Origin: a virus
Virus record (IMG/VR): IMGVR_UViG_3300007513_000253
Coordinates: 1 to 20,094 of that record
Length of the DNA stretch: 20,094 nt
Direction: 5' to 3' (one strand)
A program made the position numbers and the translations under genes. The first letter of the stretch is position 1; each line of letters starts with the position of its first letter. This document shows positions 4,615 to 20,094 of this stretch, piece by piece. The notes under the pieces were generated by a model. It was not told the DNA's origin. It ran no database searches and worked only from the letters and a program-made list of their open reading frames with translations.

Positions 4615-6935
4615 ATTCAGAAGTCAAGGTCATTAAGTCAGACGGTTCAAAAGTTTCAATAGATTTAGATAAGATACATATAATGGTAGAGAAAGCCTGT
4701 AGACATATTGCAGGTGTTTCAGAGTCACTAGTAGAGATGAACAGTGGTCTACAATTTTATGATGGCATCACAACTAAAGAAATACAGAAGATTCTAATCA
4801 AGTCTGCAAGTGACTTAATCTCACTAGATAACCCAAATTATCAATTTGTAGCGGCCAGACTATTGTTGTTCGCAATACAGAAACAAGTCTTCAATACAAA
4901 GTGGAAGGATAAATCTAAAGACGACTCGTTAGACAAAATATATCCGCCATTAAAGGAATTGATAAAGAGAAATATAAAGAAGGGTCTTTATTCAAATGAC
5001 TTAATTTCTAAATACTCAGACGAGGAGTTAATTAAACTCAACTCATATCTAAAGCATGGTAGAGATTTAGATTTCACCTATGCAGGTTTACAACAAGTAG
5101 TAGATAAGTATCTTATACAAGACAGGTCATCTAACACTTTGTTTGAAACACCGCAATACATGTATATGTTAATTGCAATGACACTGTTTCAAAATTACAA
5201 TGGTCATGGCGAAAAAGATAGATTATGGTATATCAAGAAATATTATGATGCATCATCGACATTTAAAATAAACATACCCACGCCTATAATGGCAGGTGTA
5301 AGAACGCCGATGAAACAATTTGCATCATGTGTCCTAGTAGACAGTGATGATACTTTAGATTCATTATTCTCTAGTGACATGGCGATTGGTAGATATGTCG
5401 CCCAAAGAGCAGGCATTGGCATCAACGCAGGAAGAGTCAGAGGATTGGGTTCAAGAATAAGAGGTGGTGAAGTACAACACACAGGTGTTATACCATTTCT
5501 TAAGAAATTTGAGTCAACAGTGAGATGTTGCACTCAGAATGGAGTCAGAGGCGGAAGTGCAACAGTTCATTTCCCTATTTGGCACCAAGAGATTGAAGAC
5601 ATTATTGTATTAAAGAACAATAAGGGAACAGAAGACAACAGAGTAAGAAAGTTAGATTACTCTATACAACTATCAGAGTTGTTTTATAAGAGATTTCTTC
5701 AAAATGGAGAAATAACATTATTCTCACCTCATGATGTGCCAGGTTTATATGATGCATTTGGCACGCCAGAGTTTGATGAAATGTATGAGAAGTATGAAAA
5801 TGCATACTCAATCCCTAAAAGAAAAATTAGTGCAAGAGAACTAATAACAGATTTATTGAAAGAACGAGCGGAGACTGGTCGTATCTATATCATGAACATT
5901 GACCATTGTAATAGTCATAGTTCATTTACAGACAAGATTAATATGAGTAATCTTTGTCAAGAGATAACATTACCAACAGAACCCATACAACATATCGATG
6001 ACCATGGTGGGGAGATTGCCTTATGTATATTAAGTGCAATCAATGTTGGTGTTATCAAAGATTCAGAACTAGAAGAGATATGTGACATTGCAGTCAGAGG
6101 TCTAGACGAGTTAATAGATTATCAAGAATATCCAGTGGCAGCCGCCGAAATGTCAACACTCGCAAGACGAAGTTTAGGCATAGGATACATTGGACTGGCA
6201 CACTATTTAGCAAAAAACCGTGTCAAATATGGTGATGAGAGCGCCTGGAGACTCGTCCACGAGTTGTCCGAGAAATTCCAATACTATCTACTCAAATCAT
6301 CTACGACATTAGCGCAGGAAAAGGGTAAATGTGACTATTTTGATAGAACCAAGTATGCACAAGGCATATTACCCATAGACACATACAAGAAAGATGTAGA
6401 TGATATAGTAAAACCCGAATATAAGATGGATTGGGAGAAACTAAGAGAAGAGATATTAACACATGGGTTGAGACACTCTACATTGACCGCACAAATGCCA
6501 AGTGAATCGTCAAGTGTCACATCTAACGCAACTAATGGCATTGAACCACCTAGAGATTATCTATCAGTTAAGAAAAGTAAGAAGGGAACACTCAAACAGA
6601 TAGTTCCTCAATACTCACATCTTAAATCTGCATACACTTTATTGTGGGATATGGAAGATAACACAGGTTATATCAATATAGTTGCAGTAATGCAAAAGTT
6701 CTTTGACCAAGGGATAAGTGGTAACTGGTCATATAATCCCGAGAATTATGATAATAATGAAGTTCCAGTCTCTATCATGGCAAGAGACTTGTTGAATACA
6801 TATAAGTATGGATGGAAGACATCTTATTACCAAAACACAATGGATGGTAAAGTAGAAGATGTTATAGAAGAGCCACTACCTAGTGACCCTTTTGATTCCG
6901 ATAGTGAGGAAGATTGTGATGCCTGTGCCATTTAA
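4611..6935 (+). CDS. nrdA: Ribonucleoside-diphosphate reductase class Ia, alpha subunit
   Basis: 774 aa. It reduces ribonucleoside diphosphates to deoxyribonucleotides using a radical relayed from NrdB. An N-terminal ATP-cone is recognisable (VIKSDGSKVSIDLDKI near residue 6), so allosteric dATP control is plausible. The active-site set is complete: C240 and C472 (equivalent to E. coli C225/C462), the N447-x-C449-x-E451 loop (E. coli N437/C439/E441), and the radical-transfer pair Y739-Y740 in SYYQNT. The C-terminal redox pair is C769-x2-C772, closer together than the E. coli C-x4-C. No intron or intein interrupts it. It overlaps the primase by 4 nt, and the following oxygenase starts 17 nt before its stop. 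Confidence 0.97.
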   Translation: MNSEVKVIKSDGSKVSIDLDKIHIMVEKACRHIAGVSESLVEMNSGLQFYDGITTKEIQKILIKSASDLISLDNPNYQFVAARLLLFAIQKQVFNTKWKDKSKDDSLDKIYPPLKELIKRNIKKGLYSNDLISKYSDEELIKLNSYLKHGRDLDFTYAGLQQVVDKYLIQDRSSNTLFETPQYMYMLIAMTLFQNYNGHGEKDRLWYIKKYYDASSTFKINIPTPIMAGVRTPMKQFASCVLVDSDDTLDSLFSSDMAIGRYVAQRAGIGINAGRVRGLGSRIRGGEVQHTGVIPFLKKFESTVRCCTQNGVRGGSATVHFPIWHQEIEDIIVLKNNKGTEDNRVRKLDYSIQLSELFYKRFLQNGEITLFSPHDVPGLYDAFGTPEFDEMYEKYENAYSIPKRKISARELITDLLKERAETGRIYIMNIDHCNSHSSFTDKINMSNLCQEITLPTEPIQHIDDHGGEIALCILSAINVGVIKDSELEEICDIAVRGLDELIDYQEYPVAAAEMSTLARRSLGIGYIGLAHYLAKNRVKYGDESAWRLVHELSEKFQYYLLKSSTTLAQEKGKCDYFDRTKYAQGILPIDTYKKDVDDIVKPEYKMDWEKLREEILTHGLRHSTLTAQMPSESSSVTSNATNGIEPPRDYLSVKKSKKGTLKQIVPQYSHLKSAYTLLWDMEDNTGYINIVAVMQKFFDQGISGNWSYNPENYDNNEVPVSIMARDLLNTYKYGWKTSYYQNTMDGKVEDVIEEPLPSDPFDSDSEEDCDACAI

Positions 6936-7908
6936 AGATAAAACTGTAGATTATAGAATAAAATCAAATTTAGACATCGATAAACCTAGAAATTTGAGTT
7001 CGATGTCGTCAAATACATCTCTTGTGCCTGGAAAAACTAACCCATTGACATGGGAACTCATGTTCGATAGATATGTCGTTCTACGAGATTTCCTGCCACA
7101 AGATATAATAGAGGTGGTCATGGATATGTGGCGTTCTGCTGAAGATGTTGGTGCATACATGCATCGAGAAAATAAAGATATCACATATAAGAATCCCGAA
7201 GAGTCAATAGGCAAATCATTGGGTGGTTATTGCACACCATGGGGCATTGCATTACATGGATATATTCACAACAAGTTAAAAGATTATATCGACATGGATT
7301 TGCGAGAGACATACTCGTATACTAGAAAGTATGAGAGAGGTGCATATTTGGGTTCACACACTGATAGACCATCATGTGAGATAAGTGCAACACTTTGTCT
7401 AGATTATCATACTGATGATAACACGCCATGGAAGATATGGTTGAGAAATGATAAGAACTATGCTGGCATAGATGCAGAGACAGTTAAGAAAGAAACGCAA
7501 GACTTGACTCAACGAGAGAGATTGAGAAATGGGCTCAAGTCAGTTTCTTTAGAACCTGGTGATATATTATTATATCAAGGTCCAAACATGCCACATTGGA
7601 GAGACTACTTATTGGGTGATTACTCATATCACTTGTTTGTTCATTTCTTTAATGCAGATTCTAGAATGGAAGGCATAGAGGGATTTCACTCAGGTCAAAA
7701 TCATGATTTACACACCGCACCTGCCGCCTATGCATTAGATTTAGATGGAAGAACTAATCGTTGGGAAACAAGAGGAGATGATGAACAGCCCGATACTGAT
7801 AAGATGAGAAAGTTTACAGATTTTAATGATACATATTATAAGAGTGATTATGGTTCTATGGTAAATGACTACGAACACTTTGAATTAGTTAAGAAGAGAA
7901 GAAAATGA
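6919..7908 (+). CDS. 2OG-Fe(II) oxygenase between nrdA and nrdB (no. 1)
   Basis: 330 aa from ATG 6919. This start is preferred over an upstream ATG at 6883 because GAGGA at 6906-6910 lies 8 nt before it. The double-stranded beta-helix core is marked by H147-x-D149 in SHTDRPS, then LEPGDILLY and the distal ligand H226 in MPHWRDY, ending in a hydrophobic strand (HLFVHFF). The H-W-R...FVHF ending recalls a phage/bacterial 2OG subgroup with HWRE...FLHY (recalled from general knowledge, not searched). No Arg sits at the usual ~10 residues after the distal His; R228 is the nearest. The family couples 2-oxoglutarate decarboxylation to substrate hydroxylation or demethylation. The substrate is unknown. 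Its position within the RNR operon is striking. Confidence 0.85.
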   Translation: MPVPFKDKTVDYRIKSNLDIDKPRNLSSMSSNTSLVPGKTNPLTWELMFDRYVVLRDFLPQDIIEVVMDMWRSAEDVGAYMHRENKDITYKNPEESIGKSLGGYCTPWGIALHGYIHNKLKDYIDMDLRETYSYTRKYERGAYLGSHTDRPSCEISATLCLDYHTDDNTPWKIWLRNDKNYAGIDAETVKKETQDLTQRERLRNGLKSVSLEPGDILLYQGPNMPHWRDYLLGDYSYHLFVHFFNADSRMEGIEGFHSGQNHDLHTAPAAYALDLDGRTNRWETRGDDEQPDTDKMRKFTDFNDTYYKSDYGSMVNDYEHFELVKKRRK

Positions 7909-8096
7909 GAACTGAATTTTGCAAATTTCTAAGAGAAGTATCAACCGAAGAAGGCGGTAAAGAATATCACGAACTCGCACAATGTATTCGTTCAGGTCAA
8001 GTATCATATGACCAAATACAAGAACACATGAAAGATGAAGACTTTAAAGAGTATTACTTGAACAATTTCTATGATTATGGAATAATACCACAATGA
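7905..8096 (+). CDS. Small acidic protein of unknown function
   Basis: 63 aa, rich in Glu, Asp, Tyr and Gln, predicted mostly helical, with no transmembrane segment. Two Cys (C6, C27) are too far from other ligands to suggest a metal site. It starts in an ATGA overlap with the preceding oxygenase and ends in an ATGA overlap with the next one, so translation is probably coupled across the three genes. Not recognised. The tight fit and full-length frame between two coupled genes are the main evidence that it is real. Confidence 0.7.
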   Translation: MRTEFCKFLREVSTEEGGKEYHELAQCIRSGQVSYDQIQEHMKDEDFKEYYLNNFYDYGIIPQ

Positions 8097-8698
8097 AACA
8101 TCATACTTATTATAAAGAGTTTCTTTCTCCTACAGAATGTGAACAATTATCATCATTTGTTATGTCAGAAGAACCTAGAATCATGGCAATTGATAACCCA
8201 TACAAACATCCAGATTCATGGAAAGGACTTACAGGACAACATCTGGTCTATAATTGGTTATCTCATCCGACACTTCAAGCGTTAAATATACCACAAAGAC
8301 TGTTTGAATTGCCAGATTTTCAAAATGCTACAGTTCTTGGTATACAATGTTGGATGAATATTTTAAGACAAGAGGAAAGAATAGAACAACACGCACATGG
8401 TGAACCAGATGATTCTCCTTCATATGCTTGTAATGTATTTCTCTCAGGTAACCTGACCACCGGAACACGATATGAAGATATTGGTTATACACCAAATGAA
8501 ATTGGAGAAATTCACATATGTTCACACGAACTAGAACACGCAGTTCCTTCTCAATTATTCAGAGAACCACGAATCAGTATGGCGATGGATGTGTGGTTTA
8601 ATGATGAAAGTATACAAGAGATTTACAACTCGCCAGAAACATTTCCAAATAGTAGTGTTCGCATTATAGAATTCAGGAGAAGTAATGACAGTATTTAA
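8093..8698 (+). CDS. 2OG-Fe(II) oxygenase between nrdA and nrdB (no. 2)
   Basis: 201 aa, a compact single-domain member of the superfamily. The first metal motif is in EQHAHGEP: H102-x-E104 would give the His/acid pair, with H100 nearby. Strand residues YACNVFLSG follow, then IHICSHELEHAVP with distal H149 and R160 eleven residues later in FREPRIS, the position usual for the 2-oxoglutarate-binding Arg. The His/acid-His-Arg set therefore looks complete. Sequence around the motifs differs from oxygenase no. 1, so it is not a simple duplicate. It starts in an ATGA overlap, and its end overlaps nrdB by 14 nt. Substrate unknown. Confidence 0.82.
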   Translation: MKHHTYYKEFLSPTECEQLSSFVMSEEPRIMAIDNPYKHPDSWKGLTGQHLVYNWLSHPTLQALNIPQRLFELPDFQNATVLGIQCWMNILRQEERIEQHAHGEPDDSPSYACNVFLSGNLTTGTRYEDIGYTPNEIGEIHICSHELEHAVPSQLFREPRISMAMDVWFNDESIQEIYNSPETFPNSSVRIIEFRRSNDSI

Positions 8699-12224: not shown

Positions 12225-12608
12225 ATGCAACAAGCATTAATTGGTATAGTAGCAGTATTAGGTTTTATGTGTTGGTATCTGTTCAGTCAGAACGAAACAT
12301 TAACCGCAAATAATATCAAACTAGAAAGTGCCATACAAGAGCAACAAGAGGCGATGACCGCCATGAAAGAGTCATACGAAAAACAAGGACAGGCATTACA
12401 GAACATGTCTCGAAAGAACGCAGAAATCGAGGCAGAGAAGGCAGAATACCTTGCAATATTTTCAAGACACAATTTAGATTTACTTGCACTCAAGAAACCT
12501 GGTCTTATCGAGATTAGATTCAGAGCTGCCAGTGATGCAGTGATGGAGGGACTAGAAGATGATACAGAAGAACTTTATAAGCTTACTGTGCCTAGTGACA
12601 CTGATTAG
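12225..12608 (+). CDS. i-spanin-like (Rz-type) inner-membrane protein
   Basis: 127 aa. An uncleaved N-terminal transmembrane helix (residues ~3-21) is followed by a Gln/Glu/Ala-rich helical region (~24-80), consistent with a periplasmic coiled coil. AGGAG at 12213-12217 gives a good ribosome site. Its end overlaps a lipoprotein gene in another frame by 50 nt, the classic Rz/Rz1 arrangement. Spanins fuse inner and outer membranes in the last step of lysis of Gram-negative hosts. The call rests on topology and gene pairing, not on recognised sequence similarity. Confidence 0.68.
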   Translation: MQQALIGIVAVLGFMCWYLFSQNETLTANNIKLESAIQEQQEAMTAMKESYEKQGQALQNMSRKNAEIEAEKAEYLAIFSRHNLDLLALKKPGLIEIRFRAASDAVMEGLEDDTEELYKLTVPSDTD

Positions 12609-13149
12609 TGGTTGTTCACTAATACCAGCAAGAGATGTAAAGATAGTCTCTAAACCAATAGAGATAGATATCATGCAACCCGATTTACCAAGACCTGTTA
12701 ATTTGACTGCACCGAAATGGTATGTTGTATCAGAGGCGACTATCACCAATCCATGTAGGGCGACAATATCACACGACCCGAAAAAATTCAAAGAAGATGG
12801 CACAGAAATGTTGAAGAGACCCAAGGCTTGTGCAAAAGAGGATACAGAGAATCCAGATTGGCCAGAAGGTTACACATATCTCGATAGATTTTTAGACGAG
12901 ATGAAAGAACAGAACAATGGTGAGGTGTTGTTTGTTGCAACTACTGTTGGTGACTACAAAGTCATGGCAGAAGACATGCAAGAACTCAAACGATACATCA
13001 AACAAATGGGTGAAGTAATAGTGTATTATAGAAATGTCACTATTAAGAATCCTGATGGCACCGAAGAGAAGGGTGTTGGTGTTTCCAATTCTGACGATGA
13101 TTCAAAAAGACCGAGTGTTGGTTTATTTCCAAGAAATAAAAAAGATTAA
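12559..13149 (+). CDS. o-spanin-like (Rz1-type) outer-membrane lipoprotein
   Basis: 196 aa. The lipoprotein signal peptide is clear: hydrophobic residues 6-14, lipobox L15-I-S-G-C19 and cleavage before C19. The ATG at 12559 has GGAGGG at 12545-12550, eight bases away, inside the upstream coding region. The mature protein is ~178 residues, much longer than typical Rz1. It has a polar region with C62 and C86 (possible disulfide), a helical segment around DMQELKRYIKQMG and a charged, disordered C-terminus. Pairing with the membrane coiled-coil gene supports an o-spanin. A longer lipoprotein with an extra domain is the alternative. Confidence 0.68.
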   Translation: MIQKNFISLLCLVTLISGCSLIPARDVKIVSKPIEIDIMQPDLPRPVNLTAPKWYVVSEATITNPCRATISHDPKKFKEDGTEMLKRPKACAKEDTENPDWPEGYTYLDRFLDEMKEQNNGEVLFVATTVGDYKVMAEDMQELKRYIKQMGEVIVYYRNVTIKNPDGTEEKGVGVSNSDDDSKRPSVGLFPRNKKD

Positions 13150-13971: not shown

Positions 13972-14049
13972 ATGATAGTTGGTATTACAGTATTCATTGT
14001 TTCCGTCACACTATATATTATGAATAAGAATGAAACCAGTCAAAATTGA
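13972..14049 (+). CDS. 25-aa transmembrane mini-peptide
   Basis: ATG 13972 to TGA 14047-14049, overlapping the next gene by 20 nt. The sequence is almost wholly a hydrophobic helix (MIVGITVFIVSVTLYIM) with a polar tail (NKNETSQN). No clear Shine-Dalgarno. It resembles in layout the 26-aa peptide at 12135. Coding status is uncertain. Confidence 0.3.
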   Translation: MIVGITVFIVSVTLYIMNKNETSQN

Positions 14050-14785
14050 TACACCAAAAAATACATATGCGCCTTGCCGAGGTGAATATCATCAGATGTT
14101 CCCAACGCCTATGTTTCAAGGCAAAGTCAACTTAAATCATAAAGAAGTTGCAAAACACTGTAAAGAGATTGTTGCAAAGGTGCCTAATGGCAACCCAACA
14201 ATGGAGTATACAACATATTTCGATAATGACTTAAGAGAAGAGACACACAATCAACCGTGGTTTAACTCATTTGCCAATCAGATGAAGGATTCGTATATCG
14301 CATTTCTCAGAGAGATGTGGTTATTTCCAACTGATGGCCTCAACAGACACAACATACATTTCTTTGCATGGGTGAATGTCTATAATCAACCACACCAACA
14401 CGAAACACACAATCATGTCAAGTCTAGACTATCAGGTACATACTATGTGAAGACTGATTTTGATTCAGAACCAATTAAATTCTTTAACCCGAATATGAGT
14501 TCTTTATTTGGTCATGGCGCCAATGACGATAGAATGAAATACAATGAACAAATGGAAGGTGCAGGTACGCCAGGTGGAATGACAGACCTCGAATTCTTTC
14601 CTAAGACTGGTGACTTTATGTTGTGGCCTTCGTATCTATTACATACTGTTCCAAGGGGTAAGGCACGAGATATGCTGAACTATGAACGCATAAGTGTTTC
14701 ATTCAATTTACAACATTCAGAAGATTTGGGTTCATATCATCATGGCGATAACTTTGATTATGGGGTTTTAGATGAACAAAGATAA
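14030..14785 (+). CDS. 2OG-Fe(II) oxygenase (no. 3), HxH-type
   Basis: 251 aa. The core resembles the 2OG-FeII_Oxy_5 group: WVNVYNQPHQHETHNH with H127-x-H129 preceding RLSGTYYV, then FFPKTGDFMLWPSYLLHTVP with distal H205, and R220 in NYERISVSFNL in the 2-oxoglutarate Arg position. In that group an HxH stands where most relatives have HxD. The N-terminal ~100 residues include FPTPMFQGK, a short motif common at the start of this family. It begins the run of five oxygenase genes and its stop overlaps the next start by 14 nt. Substrate unknown. Confidence 0.85.
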   Translation: MKPVKIDTPKNTYAPCRGEYHQMFPTPMFQGKVNLNHKEVAKHCKEIVAKVPNGNPTMEYTTYFDNDLREETHNQPWFNSFANQMKDSYIAFLREMWLFPTDGLNRHNIHFFAWVNVYNQPHQHETHNHVKSRLSGTYYVKTDFDSEPIKFFNPNMSSLFGHGANDDRMKYNEQMEGAGTPGGMTDLEFFPKTGDFMLWPSYLLHTVPRGKARDMLNYERISVSFNLQHSEDLGSYHHGDNFDYGVLDEQR

Positions 14786-15464
14786 TGTAGTCATACTAGA
14801 TGAACTCTATAAGATGAGGTCGTCATTTGACAATGCAGAGTTTGATGGTTTCTGTTTGACTATAGATGATTTCTATGAAAACGCAGAAGACTTATATGAA
14901 CATATCACGAACAGACAATACCCAATGTGGAAATACAACCCCGAATCTAATACACGCAATGGCATAGATTATCTCGACTGTAGGATAGTAGATAAGGTTG
15001 GGCACCCTACGAGAATATACAATAATGAGAATGAGAGACTACTAGATGTATGCAGACGATATTGGTGGAAGGGCGAATACAATTGGTCAGGTCTATATGA
15101 GTTTAATTGTTTTCAAACGATTACAGTAGATGACCCTAAGATGCAACATTACCCACATATCGATAGTGCATTAGACACGCCAGACAATTGTTCAACACTC
15201 AACATGTTAGTATACTTAGATAAAGAAGAAGATGGTGGTACTGCCGTATATGACGGAGAATGGATTACTAATGATGAGAACATGAGTTTACTGTATCCTG
15301 TTGAAGACAGATTTGATATAGAACGAATCATACCACACAAGTTTAACAGATGTGTTATATTTCCAGGCAATCGTATGCATGGTGCATATATAAATGACTA
15401 CAATAAATACAAAGACAAGTGGAGATTTACCCAAGTGATATTCTACCACCCACAAAGGAATTAA
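14772..15464 (+). CDS. 2OG-Fe(II) oxygenase (no. 4), DUF6445-like
   Basis: 230 aa. Motifs: H129-I-D131 in QHYPHIDSALD, strand LNMLVYLDKEEDGGTAVYD (the GGT turn typical of the fold), distal H203 in FPGNRMHGAYI, and R218 in KWRFTQVIFY fifteen residues later. All expected metal and co-substrate positions are filled. The layout resembles DUF6445-type proteins of marine phages and bacteria (recognition by eye only). The N-terminal half is helical with a YWWKGEYNW aromatic patch. The gene overlaps the previous one by 14 nt and is followed two bases later by the next. Confidence 0.84.
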   Translation: MNKDNVVILDELYKMRSSFDNAEFDGFCLTIDDFYENAEDLYEHITNRQYPMWKYNPESNTRNGIDYLDCRIVDKVGHPTRIYNNENERLLDVCRRYWWKGEYNWSGLYEFNCFQTITVDDPKMQHYPHIDSALDTPDNCSTLNMLVYLDKEEDGGTAVYDGEWITNDENMSLLYPVEDRFDIERIIPHKFNRCVIFPGNRMHGAYINDYNKYKDKWRFTQVIFYHPQRN

Positions 15465-15466
15465 TT

Positions 15467-16276
15467 ATGACCCCAAAATTCAAAATAGGCAATCCTGTCA
15501 ACATGGAAGATACGAATATAGAGAAGAATGAAGAAGGTATTCTTGATGGTGTAGGTAATGATTACGCTAGAGACGGTGATGCAAATGAGTATTTTATAGG
15601 AGACTCAGAATTGGATCCTTCACATTCTCGATACAGAGAACGGAACGAACCGAACTTCATTTACATAAAACCTAGAATAATCAATGACCGTGGTTGTTCA
15701 GCACTTATCAACATGTTTCTAGATATGCCATTTGATGAGGTCACCATAGAGAACGAACACGATATCACTCCATCTGAGAGAGTGCAAAAACACAATCTAT
15801 CTTACAAGTATGAGGCAGGTTACAACAAAGACCATATGACACTGGCACACGACTCGCCAGAGTGGAATAAGGCATTAGAGGTCGTAGGTTCTCAGTTAAT
15901 CGAACATCCAGATTTTGATAGAATCACATATATGCAAATCGTTCATTATAAACAAGATGCACTCTTCCCATTTCATAGAGACATGGCGAAGAATGATGTA
16001 GGCAGAGATTACGGAACATGCATCACTCAATTGAATGACGATTTTCATGGCGGACAACTGAATGTAGAAGGTTGCCTTATACCCAAGAGAGCGGGTACAA
16101 TGGCATTCTTTAACAATTCAAGTGAAGTCTGGCATGGTGTTGAACCGATATATGACGGTGAACGATATGTCTTTTTAATGTGGTTTGGGAGGGACTATGA
16201 ATCAAGCGAAATGCAGTCAATGTCAGAAGACACTGAATCTGGAGACGGTGAGTTATCACTCGAAGATAATCAATAA
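15467..16276 (+). CDS. 2OG-Fe(II) oxygenase (no. 5), prolyl-hydroxylase-like
   Basis: 269 aa from ATG 15467, with AAAGGAA at 15454-15460 as the ribosome site; an in-frame ATG at 15419 inside the upstream gene is less likely. The first ~60 residues are acidic and probably disordered. The catalytic set is complete: H170-R-D172 in FPFHRDMAK, FHGGQLNV turn, RAGTMAFFNN, distal H223 in VWHGVEP and R233 in GERYVFLMWF exactly ten residues on, as in SM-20/P4H-type enzymes. The last 80 nt also encode the start of the zinc-finger ORF in another frame, and the C-terminus is correspondingly acidic (SEDTESGDGELSLEDNQ). Confidence 0.88.
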   Translation: MTPKFKIGNPVNMEDTNIEKNEEGILDGVGNDYARDGDANEYFIGDSELDPSHSRYRERNEPNFIYIKPRIINDRGCSALINMFLDMPFDEVTIENEHDITPSERVQKHNLSYKYEAGYNKDHMTLAHDSPEWNKALEVVGSQLIEHPDFDRITYMQIVHYKQDALFPFHRDMAKNDVGRDYGTCITQLNDDFHGGQLNVEGCLIPKRAGTMAFFNNSSEVWHGVEPIYDGERYVFLMWFGRDYESSEMQSMSEDTESGDGELSLEDNQ

Positions 16277-16406
16277 TACGGTAGAACATGTGTGGTGTAA
16301 TGCAGAATGTAGTCATAAGTGGCATCAGGCAAATAAGAAATATGAAGAATCACTCAAGAAGAGACCGAAGAATATATGGCCATCACATGAAGGGCATGGT
16401 GGGTAA
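16197..16406 (+). CDS. Small Cys-rich zinc-finger protein
   Basis: 69 aa from ATG 16197; GGGAGGG at 16187-16193 just upstream sets this start. Ligands C6-x2-C9 and C34-x3-C38 (WCNAECSHKWH, with nearby His) suggest a treble-clef/TRASH-like zinc finger. The C-terminal part is basic (KKYEESLKKRPKN). The gene shares 80 nt with the preceding oxygenase, long for this genome, and its stop overlaps the next ATG (TAATG). It could bind nucleic acid or act as a partner for the oxygenases around it; neither is shown. Confidence 0.68.
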   Translation: MNQAKCSQCQKTLNLETVSYHSKIINNTVEHVWCNAECSHKWHQANKKYEESLKKRPKNIWPSHEGHGG

Positions 16407-16918
16407 TGGAAATAATAGATAATTTTTATAAAGAGAATTTCTTTAACGACTTAGTAGAACAACTTGAGGGTCCATATTGTCCTTATTATATCAATCCAGT
16501 CAATAGAGATAGTTCGTATTATCAATTCACTCATGCAATCTATTATCGTAATCGACCCGAAAGTGATATGTTTGAATTGATTCAACCTTTATTAGAACAA
16601 CTTGATTGTCTCAGTCTCATAAGGGCAAAGGTCAATTTGCTACCACGAACCGACAAAAGAATTGAACATGACTATCATATAGACATAGACTTTGCACCTA
16701 CGAATGTGAAGACTGCCATATTGTACTTGAATGACAACAATGGTTACACTAAATTTAAACATCAAGACGAGAATAGAGTCAATAGTAAAGCGAACAGATT
16801 AGTCAGGTTTGCAAATGGCATCTATCACACTGGTTCAACTAACACATGTGATGAACCCTATAGATTGGTTTTGAACATAGATTATATCCAAAAAAATAAT
16901 GACATCAGAGAATACTGA
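16406..16918 (+). CDS. 2OG-Fe(II) oxygenase (no. 6), compact
   Basis: 170 aa, near the minimum for this fold. Motifs: H91-I-D93 in DYHIDIDF, strand KTAILYLNDNNGYTKF, distal H141 in FANGIYHTGS and R153 in EPYRLVLNIDY, twelve residues on. The metal and 2-oxoglutarate residues are all present. The start overlaps the previous stop (TAATG) and the end overlaps the next gene by 20 nt. Substrate unknown. Confidence 0.86.
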   Translation: MEIIDNFYKENFFNDLVEQLEGPYCPYYINPVNRDSSYYQFTHAIYYRNRPESDMFELIQPLLEQLDCLSLIRAKVNLLPRTDKRIEHDYHIDIDFAPTNVKTAILYLNDNNGYTKFKHQDENRVNSKANRLVRFANGIYHTGSTNTCDEPYRLVLNIDYIQKNNDIREY

Positions 16919-17522
16919 AAAACCCCAATACCATTGGATAGACCATGGCGACCACATACTCGCCATTGAGAACTGTTTTGATGATGGTCTAATAGATGCA
17001 TGTATTGATGTATTCAATGATTGTGAAGAGAAGGGTTTAACTCTCGACAGACTAGAGAGTCATCCTGGTTCACATAAACATCTTCGTGCTGACACCTCGA
17101 TATTCTATAGTTCAATGGACCCTATGTTGTCTCCACCAATGCAAGACATGAAAGGAATCATCGACAATGAAATCATTGACTCATGGTTAGAACATTATCC
17201 AGTGATAGAGACTGAACAATATAGAGAACTATATACTAGTCAGCTGAAGATACAGAGAACACGATTGACAGAAGGGTATCATAATTGGCATAGTGAACAC
17301 ACGAGTAAGATACAAGATGTTAGAACGATACTTGCATATATGGTATACTTGAATGATGTTGATGAAGGTGGTGAGACTGAATTCTTATATCAATCAAAAC
17401 GAATACGGCCTAAACGCAATACATTTGTTATATGGCCAGCGGGATTTACTCACACTCATCGTGGAAACCCACCGTTGAGTAATGATAAATATGTTATAAC
17501 AGGTTGGATAAATGTTATCTAA
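16899..17522 (+). CDS. 2OG-Fe(II) oxygenase (no. 7), prolyl 4-hydroxylase-like
   Basis: 207 aa. Motifs: H131-S-E133 in YHNWHSEH (Glu instead of Asp as the acid ligand), AYMVYLNDVDEGGETEF with the GGxTEF signature of prolyl 4-hydroxylases, then IWPAGFTHTHRGNPP with distal H185 or H187. K197 in DKYVITGWI occupies the 2-oxoglutarate-anchoring position, where P4H enzymes use Lys. It is the last oxygenase of the plus-strand run. The next gene has its own strong ribosome site. Confidence 0.87.
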   Translation: MTSENTEKPQYHWIDHGDHILAIENCFDDGLIDACIDVFNDCEEKGLTLDRLESHPGSHKHLRADTSIFYSSMDPMLSPPMQDMKGIIDNEIIDSWLEHYPVIETEQYRELYTSQLKIQRTRLTEGYHNWHSEHTSKIQDVRTILAYMVYLNDVDEGGETEFLYQSKRIRPKRNTFVIWPAGFTHTHRGNPPLSNDKYVITGWINVI

Positions 17523-17795: not shown

Positions 17796-18692
17796 ATGGC
17801 ATTTAATATTACGACTGTATGTATGAAGGGTGACTCACATAGAACACCCGAAGATGTAATCAGACTTAAGATACATCTCGACAGACAACGATTGATAATT
17901 CACGAAGGTATGCAACTTGCACGCTTTTGTGTTCTTAGTGACTATACGGAGGAAGACTTTCTTGCAGTTGAACCTGCATTTGAAAGCGACCCACACCATG
18001 TCTCTAACTTTTCTTTAGTCTCAGTACCATCGCTCGCCGATGATGAACATCCATCATTTGCAACTCGACATGTATTCAAGAACGATAAGTTTGGTGAGTT
18101 AGACAAGACAATGTTCATTGATTGTAAAGTGATACCACGAGGTGTCTCTCATTCTATACTGTTCAGTTCATTACCAGAGAAGGGCAACCCCAACCACTCA
18201 TCATTTACTGTTGAAGAAGACGATAGACAAGCAATCATATTGAACAATTGGTCGACTCTTAACTATTGCGTTGATTGGACCGAAACCGAAGATACTCAAC
18301 TCTTACCTTACTTCTTTCAACACAACTATGGCGAACATGAAGAACTCGTTAAGAAGATGAACGATACAGAAGTCACGAGTAAGTACCCGACATTTCAGCA
18401 TTTCATTGAAGGTGAGTATGACGAGTTCATGTTACCATTTCAACCTGCCGTGATAGGCAAATACTATTCTTGTAATCTAGAGATGAACAAGGCATTGAAT
18501 GAGGCGTATGAGAAGAATGTCAGACCGTCATATCCAGAACAATGGCGTGGTACAGGTGGTGACGAAGAACAGAAGTACATTGAATTCGAACACGACTGGA
18601 GAGATATCACTAGACAAACATCGATGTTATATATCGATGAATCCATAGATACTATGGATAAAGATTATTATCTTAGACTTTGGGTATTATAG
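17796..18692 (+). CDS. Unrecognised protein, perhaps glycosyltransferase-like
   Basis: 298 aa, ribosome site GGAGA. No family is certain. The beginning (FNITTVCMKGDSHRTPEDV, then FCVLSDYTEEDF) resembles the first beta strand and the 'C-x-S/T-D' strand of phage/bacterial glycosyltransferase-like proteins. A later GGDEEQKYIEF and a Trp/Tyr-rich second half are compatible with that fold, but no DxD motif stands out. The middle contains many His and acidic residues (ESDPHHVSNF). It has its own promoter-like box. Its stop overlaps the stop of the opposite-strand gene by 6 nt (tail to tail), with no terminator hairpin visible at the junction. Confidence 0.6.
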   Translation: MAFNITTVCMKGDSHRTPEDVIRLKIHLDRQRLIIHEGMQLARFCVLSDYTEEDFLAVEPAFESDPHHVSNFSLVSVPSLADDEHPSFATRHVFKNDKFGELDKTMFIDCKVIPRGVSHSILFSSLPEKGNPNHSSFTVEEDDRQAIILNNWSTLNYCVDWTETEDTQLLPYFFQHNYGEHEELVKKMNDTEVTSKYPTFQHFIEGEYDEFMLPFQPAVIGKYYSCNLEMNKALNEAYEKNVRPSYPEQWRGTGGDEEQKYIEFEHDWRDITRQTSMLYIDESIDTMDKDYYLRLWVL

Positions 18693-19847
18693 AGTTTTCT
18701 TTCCAGAGAAATCTTTTGATGTATAGTCTAACATGATGTGTGAAGGGTATACGCCAGACTGTTTATTACGAATGTTCATCTTGAAGTCATAATACTCATT
18801 ACTGAACTCTACATCAATACGCTTTCCCTTACCTGATTTACCACCGTAGTATGCAATCATCTTACTTGTTGATATATTAGCGAACTTCTTATTCTCTCTT
18901 TCGCCCACCCACCAATAGTAAACTTTGCCTCCTAGGGCATGTACCATATGATAGTTGGCACCGATTGCTGTTTGCATGAATAAACTCAACTTTTGTTTAT
19001 CAACATGTTTTGTCACATTCTCGGTAGGGAACTGTTCTCCACTGTTGTATTTGTTAAAGACTTTACAGAATAACGCATTGTTTAGACCAAACGCTTCGAG
19101 TAGGTCGATGCCGTCTTGACTAGAGACTTGACCTTTCATCATTTCTCTTGCAACGAAGAAGTTCTTAGACACGCCTGAGTTGATAAAGGTAATCGTCTTA
19201 CTTGTCTTTAATGATAGATACGACTCATGGCCATTTGCGTGTTTTGCCGTGATGTCAGTGAGTAATGCACCATGTTTGCCTGGTTGTTTGGGTTCTATAT
19301 ACGGTTTTTTACTGGCGACTTTAATGGGTCTTGATGTATTTGCACCACCTACTAAGTCGACTGTATGCACCGCACTACCCATATGTTTGCCTAGTATCTG
19401 CAATAGGTTCTTTGACTCATCATCGTATTCGCCCTTACAACATCTAGCATTTAAACACTCTTTTAAACGCCTGTCTAACTCTCTTTCAAACTGATGACCT
19501 GCATTACCTTTAGCGCCTTGGCCACCGAACTCATCAGACTTAAACAACTTCGTGACATTGATTTCTTTCTTAGTCTTTTTACCATTTTCGAATCGCCCTA
19601 TTAGGTAGATACCTGGATTCTTGGCTGCCGATGTGAGTATAACAGGTAGATTCTTATCGTATTTCGTATACTTTGTGCCCCCTATTATAACTGCCTCAGA
19701 GAAGAACAACCCACCATCAGACGCCTTACTTGTGTTCCAATTGTTCTCATTGGGTCGACCATCTTTGCCCTTCCTACCGAACACCTTATCACAAAACTTG
19801 TTTGCGTTGTTTCGTTTACCTAAATCTGCATATGAAAGACTTGCCAT
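18687..19847 (-). CDS. Unknown 386-aa protein with PD-(D/E)XK-like features
   Basis: 386 aa from ATG 19847; a longer frame back to 19928 would run upstream through the promoter-like box and over the neighbouring oxygenase end. The N-terminus (MASLSYADLGKRNNANKF) is followed by a Lys/Gly-rich region. GNAGHQFERELDRRL (E121) looks like the first helix of a PD-(D/E)XK nuclease. D198 in ALLTDIT and S212-L-K214 in YLSLKTSKTITF resemble its beta-hairpin catalytic signature, with Ser replacing the second acid. The C-terminal stretch NKQSGVYPSHIMLDY recalls, from memory, conserved hypothetical proteins of marine T4-like phages. A DNA end-processing role is possible but unproven. Confidence 0.72.
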   Translation of the reverse strand: MASLSYADLGKRNNANKFCDKVFGRKGKDGRPNENNWNTSKASDGGLFFSEAVIIGGTKYTKYDKNLPVILTSAAKNPGIYLIGRFENGKKTKKEINVTKLFKSDEFGGQGAKGNAGHQFERELDRRLKECLNARCCKGEYDDESKNLLQILGKHMGSAVHTVDLVGGANTSRPIKVASKKPYIEPKQPGKHGALLTDITAKHANGHESYLSLKTSKTITFINSGVSKNFFVAREMMKGQVSSQDGIDLLEAFGLNNALFCKVFNKYNSGEQFPTENVTKHVDKQKLSLFMQTAIGANYHMVHALGGKVYYWWVGERENKKFANISTSKMIAYYGGKSGKGKRIDVEFSNEYYDFKMNIRNKQSGVYPSHIMLDYTSKDFSGKKTL

Positions 19848-19852
19848 ACTAC

Positions 19853-19860
19853 TATTTATC
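19853..19860 (-). promoter_or_regulatory. Late-promoter-like box GATAAATA (minus strand)
   Basis: One mismatch to TATAAATA, five bases before ATG 19847. T4 spacing would place the first transcribed base on the A of that ATG. The box overlaps the TGA stop of the upstream oxygenase, as the TATAAATA at 11843 overlaps the nucleotidase stop. Confidence 0.4.
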
Positions 19861-20094
19861 AATCCGAGTACATGAAATTGATGTTTAATACATATCGATC
19901 CTCTACACCACCGATATACGAGTGCCATGAATGATTCGCCGATGGTCTAAACATATACGCCTGATTCACCGCCCATGGAATAGACCTTGTCATCTGAGTT
20001 CCATTTAGACCATGAAAACGAGTTGGTTCGCAGACACCTGGTGCTATAGGGACTATAATGGTTAACGCCTTCGCACCATAATCCGTATGAGGTT
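19859..20094 (-). CDS. C-terminal part of a 2OG-Fe(II) oxygenase (no. 8)
   Basis: Minus-strand frame open from the right edge (first full codon at 20092) to TGA at 19861-19859; 77 residues visible and no start in the window. Near the edge, P-H-T-D gives the HxD metal pair. Strands KALTIIVPIAP and QAYMFRP follow. SANHSWHSYIG carries the distal His (H54 or H57 of the fragment) and GGVEDRYVLNINF supplies the Arg (R66) for 2-oxoglutarate. All catalytic positions of the second half of the fold are thus present. It lies just upstream of the 386-aa gene on the same strand. Confidence 0.75.
   Translation of the reverse strand, partial: PHTDYGAKALTIIVPIAPGVCEPTRFHGLNGTQMTRSIPWAVNQAYMFRPSANHSWHSYIGGVEDRYVLNINFMYSD

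Follow-up and report, generated by a model that had tools for sequence, protein, structure and literature searches.

We examined a cluster of five genes for 2-oxoglutarate (2OG)-Fe(II) oxygenases, ox1 to ox5, in the 20,094-base IMG/VR virus record IMGVR_UViG_3300007513_000253 (positions 1-20,094, hereafter the window), which derives from a T4-like marine phage. The five genes and a small zinc-finger gene, zf, are flanked on one side by putative spanin genes and on the other by a 298-aa open reading frame (ORF; 17796-18692) whose product has a predicted GT-A glycosyltransferase fold. This arrangement, the ox block, is a conserved module. The explanation we favour, with a confidence that stops just short of an even chance, is that the module hydroxylates, and perhaps glycosylates, phage-made proteins, and that the lead substrate is a set of proline-rich repeat proteins encoded in a separate island of long related genomes. 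Genes for 2OG oxygenases are numerous in marine phages, and the sources considered here leave the substrates unknown or speculative; the conserved block and the island of repeat, GT8 and oxygenase genes offer a concrete, testable substrate candidate. The members of the block are as follows.

ox1: 14030..14785, + strand, TIGR02466/PF13759 2OG-Fe(II) oxygenase, HxH...H...R
ox2: 14772..15464, + strand, DUF6445-type 2OG oxygenase, HxD...H...R; the best conserved member
ox3: 15467..16276, + strand, PF13640 oxygenase, HxD...H...R; first ATG used, the listed ORF begins at GTG 15419
zf: 16197..16406 (approximate), + strand, small protein resembling a zinc finger, CxxC...CxxxC; overlaps the end of ox3
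ox4: 16406..16918, + strand, phrog_274-type 2OG oxygenase, HxD...H...R; accessory, patchy in relatives
ox5: 16899..17522, + strand, prolyl-4-hydroxylase-like PF13640 oxygenase, HxE...H...K
GT-A protein: 17796..18692, + strand, predicted GT-A (GT8-like) fold protein of 298 aa with a degenerate DxD; conserved downstream member of the block

Conservation and make-up of the ox block

Relatives of the block were collected by searching viral contigs with ox2 patterns, which found 100 loci, of which 80 were kept and 46 were non-redundant marine phage loci. As the loci were chosen via ox2, its own presence is trivial, whereas that of the other genes is not. The ox1 gene lay upstream of ox2 in all 46 loci (overlapping in 33, within 20 bases in 38) and was itself preceded by the putative spanins in 45. 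Where at least 1 kb of downstream sequence was available, ox3 followed ox2 in 37 of 41 loci; where at least 5 kb was available, the GT-A protein was present in 13 of 14 loci and ox5 in 11 of 14, with ox5 upstream of ox1 in six. The linkage of ox1-ox2 and ox3 persisted in loci with an ox2 identity as low as about 52%, the genes mostly overlapping by a short stretch, and neighbours within the block in the window often overlap by a few bases, in an operon-like manner. Members of the zf family were found in 30 of the 46 loci, either adjoining ox3 or occupying its place. Because of this recurrence, zf is a real gene and its linkage to ox3 is real; an adaptor role for it is conjecture. The initial annotation had proposed comparing gene order across phage relatives and had suggested a multi-step or multi-substrate pathway. 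The comparison bore out the block, and since the order ox1-ox2-ox3-zf-...-GT-A protein is conserved, a multi-enzyme pathway is supported.

The same data bear on the view that the oxygenases are independent auxiliary genes, each with its own substrate, brought together by a plastic region that gathers 2OG genes. In its favour, PF13640 proteins are encoded in six to eight places in the three longest relatives and PF13759 proteins in 14 in the Pelagibacter phage HTVC008M, while ox4, ox5 and a further oxygenase-like gene of the window, oxN2 (see below), are patchy or shifted in position. The unbroken pairing of ox1 with ox2 and the retention of ox3 in distant relatives are hard to square with this view, which we consider rather unlikely.

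Homology and conserved active sites together place all five predicted proteins in the 2OG-Fe(II) oxygenase superfamily, as the initial annotation had claimed for 14030-17522. The ox1 product matched PF13759 (1.5e-17) and TIGR02466 (9.3e-22, 77.8 bits against a curated cut-off of 62.5), and its solved relatives were the uncharacterised PDB entries 2rg4 (7.1e-11) and 3bvc. The ox2 product matched DUF6445 (1.6e-9, 38.5 bits against a Pfam gathering cut-off of 24) and, weakly, PF13640; a literature search found no paper on DUF6445. Matches to PF13640 were obtained for ox3 (2.2e-11) and ox5 (1.5e-12), and below the cut-off for ox4 (0.0045), which matched phrog_274 at 2.7e-41. The metal ligands and the 2OG-binding residue were H127xH129/H205/R220 in ox1, H129xD131/H203/R218 in ox2, H171xD173/H224/R234 in ox3, H91xD93/H141/R153 in ox4 (only seven sequences) and H131xE133/H187/K197 in ox5. 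These agree with the ligand sets read earlier from the letters (HxH, HID, HRD, HID and HSE, with Arg or Lys for 2OG). Per family, the metal and 2OG residues were 92-100% conserved (46, 46, 38, 7 and 31 homologues for ox1 to ox5, respectively), and the 2OG-binding Arg or Lys was kept in 95-100% of homologues. The ratio of nonsynonymous to synonymous substitution rates (dN/dS) against close relatives was 0.09-0.28 overall (0.13-0.17 for ox1, 0.09-0.13 for ox2), showing purifying selection on ox1-ox5. The genes had also been described as five consecutive ones: they are clustered, but not strictly adjacent, with zf between ox3 and ox4.

Structures were predicted for two products, ox2 and the GT-A protein. 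For ox2, the AlphaFold model (predicted local distance difference test score, pLDDT, 92.6; predicted template modelling score, pTM, 0.90) is a confident double-stranded beta-helix (DSBH), the fold that the initial annotation expected of the whole run; for ox1, ox3 and ox5 the fold is indicated by Pfam matches over the cut-off, and for ox4 by the sub-threshold PF13640 match and the motif. The best aligned structures for the ox2 model were OGFOD1, PolD, mimivirus L230 lysyl hydroxylase, PHD2 and human LH3 (Z 11.8-12.7; 11.8-11.9 for L230 and LH3). The ox3 profile was nearest to prolyl 3-hydroxylase 1 (P3H1; 6.9e-5) and to bacterial prolyl 4-hydroxylase (P4H), and that of ox5 to bacterial P4H (1e-7) and the P4H of PDB 5c5t (5.2e-6); the ox4 profile gave no useful match among solved structures. 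Among characterised proteins, those closest to ox2, ox3 and ox5 are mostly protein prolyl and lysyl hydroxylases.

The 17796-18692 product had no significant match in Pfam, PHROG or NCBIfam, and none to PF01501 (GT8). Its model was of moderate quality (pLDDT 75, pTM 0.79) and matched GT8-type glycosyltransferases (LgtC 1ss9, E 4.8e-6; 3tzt, Z 13.6), which gives moderate support to a GT-A fold of GT8 type. Searches of phage isolates by tblastn returned no match for the GT-A protein and none for ox2.

The repeat island and the candidate substrate

A second pair of 2OG genes was found in a 146-kb relative, G004, beside its neck and terminase genes and adjoining a GT8 protein and proline-rich tandem-repeat proteins. 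All five ox2-bearing contigs of at least 97 kb encode two proline-rich repeat proteins, a GT8 glycosyltransferase and two 2OG oxygenases by the neck and terminase genes, and the ox block and this island are therefore co-present in the long relatives.

Repeat island: L124, L126-L129 (contigs G001-G005), e.g. L127:12020-15626; genes for two repeat proteins, a GT8 protein and two 2OG oxygenases, close to the neck genes

The repeat proteins contain 11-14% proline, and in six of them from the long relatives the spacing between prolines was even in 308 of 327 cases; examples of the repeat peptides are RSPFTYQHRSPFTY and QEPNIRNAQQPYPYIA. A scan with one repeat motif gave, among the matches listed, at least 51 loci of at least 8 kb, with the GT8 gene in 41 and the two oxygenases in 37 and 36, so that most of them repeat the repeat-GT8-2OG order; the 51 include the same five genomes and some redundant entries. 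The second repeat ORF of one island (L127:13527-15626) has an intein/Hint-like C-terminal domain (PF14890, below cut-off), and a similar end was seen in L128:12663-13697.

The main argument for a hydroxylation module, which is the simplest reading, is the parallel make-up of the two loci: each encodes an oxygenase of the PF13759 type, another of the PF13640 type and a GT-A/GT8 protein. The ox1 product and the PF13759 enzyme of the island are related (hhalign 98%); profile comparison detected no close relation between ox3 or ox5 and the PF13640 enzyme of the island. What we infer for the ox module comprises its activity, substrate, target residue, sugar transfer and biological role. The products of ox1-ox2-ox3, often with those of zf and ox5, would differ in the residues or positions that they hydroxylate in long, repetitive structural proteins of the phage; proline is the most likely target, and lysine or asparagine are possible ones. 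The GT-A protein would then attach or bind a sugar on the hydroxylated residues. The two repeat proteins beside the neck genes, flanked by the GT8 enzyme and two 2OG oxygenases, would be the lead substrate, and the outcome could be a stiffened or sugar-coated virion fibre that aids adsorption or resists proteases or host defence. A more specific version, in which two conserved loci (ox1-ox2-ox3-zf-ox5-GT-A and repeat protein-GT8-2OG) encode a dedicated multi-oxygenase pathway that makes a hydroxyproline-rich, glycosylated virion fibre analogous to collagen or extensin, appears doubtful. If true, uncultivated phages of the ocean would produce fibres bearing hydroxyl and sugar groups, and modification of this type is otherwise familiar mainly from collagen, the cell walls of plants and a few giant viruses.

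Several observations weigh against a hydroxylation module acting on the repeat proteins. The island is separated from the ox block by 68-85 kb and includes oxygenases of its own, which leaves room for other substrates of ox1-ox5. No repeat gene is present in the window, a 20-kb genome fragment, and a common fold leaves the substrate unset. The DxD motif of the GT-A protein reads D-x-N/K, with the second Asp lost, and the whole motif is lost in one subgroup; because of this degeneracy the protein may be metal-independent, atypical or inactive. Its profile also failed to match the GT8 protein of the island. Two further searches neither support nor refute the link between the loci, as most of the contigs searched are too short to span both: ox2 gave no match in 15 repeat-bearing contigs of 49-90 kb, and the island GT8 was not found in shorter ox2 contigs (44-86 kb). 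A tblastn search of isolates with a repeat protein returned weak low-complexity matches only.

On the evidence, the substrate is more likely protein than DNA. Hydroxylation of DNA or nucleotides by the oxygenases, aided by their nrd neighbourhood and with a sugar added as in T4, would fit the position of oxN1 and oxN2 inside the nrd operon and the presence of a DNA cytosine-methyltransferase-like ORF in G004 (L125:14381-15655). We regard it as highly improbable, given that the closest profiles and structures are those of protein hydroxylases or small-molecule oxygenases and that a Pfam profile search of ox1-ox5 gave no match to the Tet_JBP or AlkB families at E values up to 1, on which ground a TET/JBP or AlkB identity was rejected.

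A metabolic role, whereby 2OG consumption or small-molecule production by the enzymes would alter the nitrogen signalling or the energy of infected cells, is improbable on present evidence. Sullivan et al. 2010 (PMC3037559) tabulated many cyanophage 2OG genes and proposed 2OG or repair roles for them. A halogenase gene adjoins a 2OG gene in HTVC008M, and the small-molecule enzymes PolD, PasI and EasH rank among the structure matches of ox2. Such a role leaves unexplained why several strongly conserved, non-redundant enzymes should occur with a GT-A partner.

The oxygenases and the GT-A protein could instead tailor surface glycans by oxidising or decorating host lipopolysaccharide, sugars or a virion glycan, with receptor change or phage exclusion as the result. 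Downstream of nrdB, the side on which the ox block lies in the window, HTVC008M and Mosig carry glycosyltransferases, methyltransferases and one carbamoyltransferase or sulfotransferase each; a P-SSM2 2OG gene stands among epimerases and glycosyltransferases; and GT8 genes of pelagimyophages, which also have collagen repeats, have been read as modifying the O-chain (PMC7029224). Neither the block of the window nor its relatives had recognisable genes for sugar-nucleotide synthesis or for other parts of a glycan cassette, and the resemblance of ox2, ox3 and ox5 to protein hydroxylases again favours a protein substrate; we judge glycan tailoring unlikely.

Other 2OG-type genes and the origin of the cluster

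Besides the five genes of the block, the window contains three further 2OG-type genes, whose assignments rest on motifs and weak profiles.

oxN1: 6919..7908 (approximate), + strand, between nrdA and nrdB; 2OG-like, phrog_2954 (named ferrochelatase), with an invariant HxD and a distal H
oxN2: 8093..8698, + strand, between nrdA and nrdB; PF13759/phrog_81-like oxygenase, patchy in relatives
ox6: 19859..20092, - strand, partial 2OG-like protein, truncated where the contig ends; HxD...H...R

The count of eight 2OG-type genes in 20 kb given by the initial annotation was thus recovered, as seven whole genes and one partial. The HxD...H...R motif of ox6 is kept in 10 homologues. For oxN1, the Arg or Lys expected to bind 2OG was not located in the homologue alignment, and the profile gave no useful match among solved structures. 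With eight such genes placed at random among 30, five of six consecutive genes would be of this type in about 4% of cases; conserved synteny is stronger evidence against chance clustering than this figure.

Recent tandem duplication was rejected as the origin of the cluster, on the grounds that the best blastp match among the window oxygenases was weak (E = 0.001) and that separate proteins of other phages are closer than the window paralogues. The profiles of ox1, ox3, ox4, ox5 and oxN1 each scored a separate HTVC008M or P-SSM2 protein above any window paralogue; the ox2 profile found nothing strong among the proteins of these two phages. By hhalign, ox3 was linked with ox5 (91%), and ox1 with ox5 over 25 columns only. 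Judging from these profiles, ox3 and ox5 are related from ancient times, and the earlier argument against simple tandem duplication stands.

Family names in PHROG appear to conceal further proteins of this type. The family of ox4, phrog_274, is named DNA endonuclease V. The P-SSM2 protein denV (L029:2522-3067), which bears that name, matched PF13640 only, and HTVC008M gp039 (L130:26549-27034), likewise named, passes PF13640. Proteins of phrog_274 look like 2OG oxygenases and not like the T4 DenV glycosylase. The HTVC008M protein gp037, named minor coat protein, is a DUF6445 protein. The "ferrochelatase" proteins of phrog_2954 (oxN1 and HTVC008M gp068, L131:7809-8450) matched no ferrochelatase family in Pfam and retain an HxD...H pattern of the 2OG type, which suggests, short of proof, a 2OG-type protein. 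The labels endonuclease V and minor coat protein, and probably also ferrochelatase, are misleading and mask 2OG-type proteins in phage annotation.

Known systems and genomic context

In mimivirus L230 and human LH3, a lysyl hydroxylase is paired with a GT-A glycosyltransferase. The ox block resembles them in the fold match of ox2 and in joining hydroxylases with a GT-A partner; it differs in having separate genes, no collagen substrate found and a GT-A protein with a degenerate DxD. P3H1, Bacillus P4H and the 5c5t P4H, the nearest profiles of ox3 and ox5, share the HxD or HxE...H...R or K arrangement, but the similarity is weak and ox5 has HxE.

Runs of 2OG oxygenases as such are already known and not new. 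HTVC008M, a T4-like marine phage and the closest cultured match to the nrdB of the window (68%), carries two arrays, gp068-gp072 and gp034-gp039. The first consists of five 2OG-type genes in a row beside neck genes, and its consecutive genes include relatives of oxN1, ox5, ox1 and ox3; the second holds the DUF6445 protein gp037. Their order and place differ from those in the window, HTVC008M has no ox1-ox2-ox3 cassette, and no proline-rich repeat protein was seen in the stretches searched, which make up nearly its whole genome. The phage collection that includes HTVC008M gave no match to the window GT-A protein. In uncultivated pelagiphages, Wittmers et al. 2022 (PMC9599517) reported eight 2OG families that are non-orthologous and lie close together, often with "ferrochelatase". 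Those are podovirus genomes in which, in the parts of that report considered here, the 2OG genes are near but not adjacent, with no fixed multi-gene order or candidate substrate. As far as these sources show, what is new is the ox1-ox2-ox3-zf-GT-A module with its fixed order, how widely it is spread, and the repeat-GT8-2OG island.

Several gene calls in the window, those of the spanins among them, were made by inspection.

Putative overlapping i-spanin and o-spanin genes: 12225..13149, + strand, context, 5' of ox1 in relatives

A DNA similarity search of the 13.5-20.1 kb region against cultured phages aligned no more than about 4% of the query, over the ox5 region. Cellular relatives of ox2 comprised just two contigs binned in metagenome-assembled genomes, both likely phage, and no host was inferred. 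A predicted outer-membrane porin-like gene (cluster c23, e.g. L064, L073 and L082) was found near the ox block in seven of the 14 relatives with enough flank, and a porin also lies near the 2OG/DUF6445 cluster of HTVC008M; this gene was considered as a candidate substrate and is absent from the window. At the start of the window, a 682-aa ORF of this T4-like phage (324-2372) has a PAP2 phosphatase domain in its C-terminal part. In L018:1308-3621 the nrdA match falls into two pieces with a short gap between them and is possibly split or frameshifted. Beyond the GT-A gene, a 413-aa ORF on the - strand (18687-19928) belongs to no known family and is kept in several relatives at 34-64% identity.

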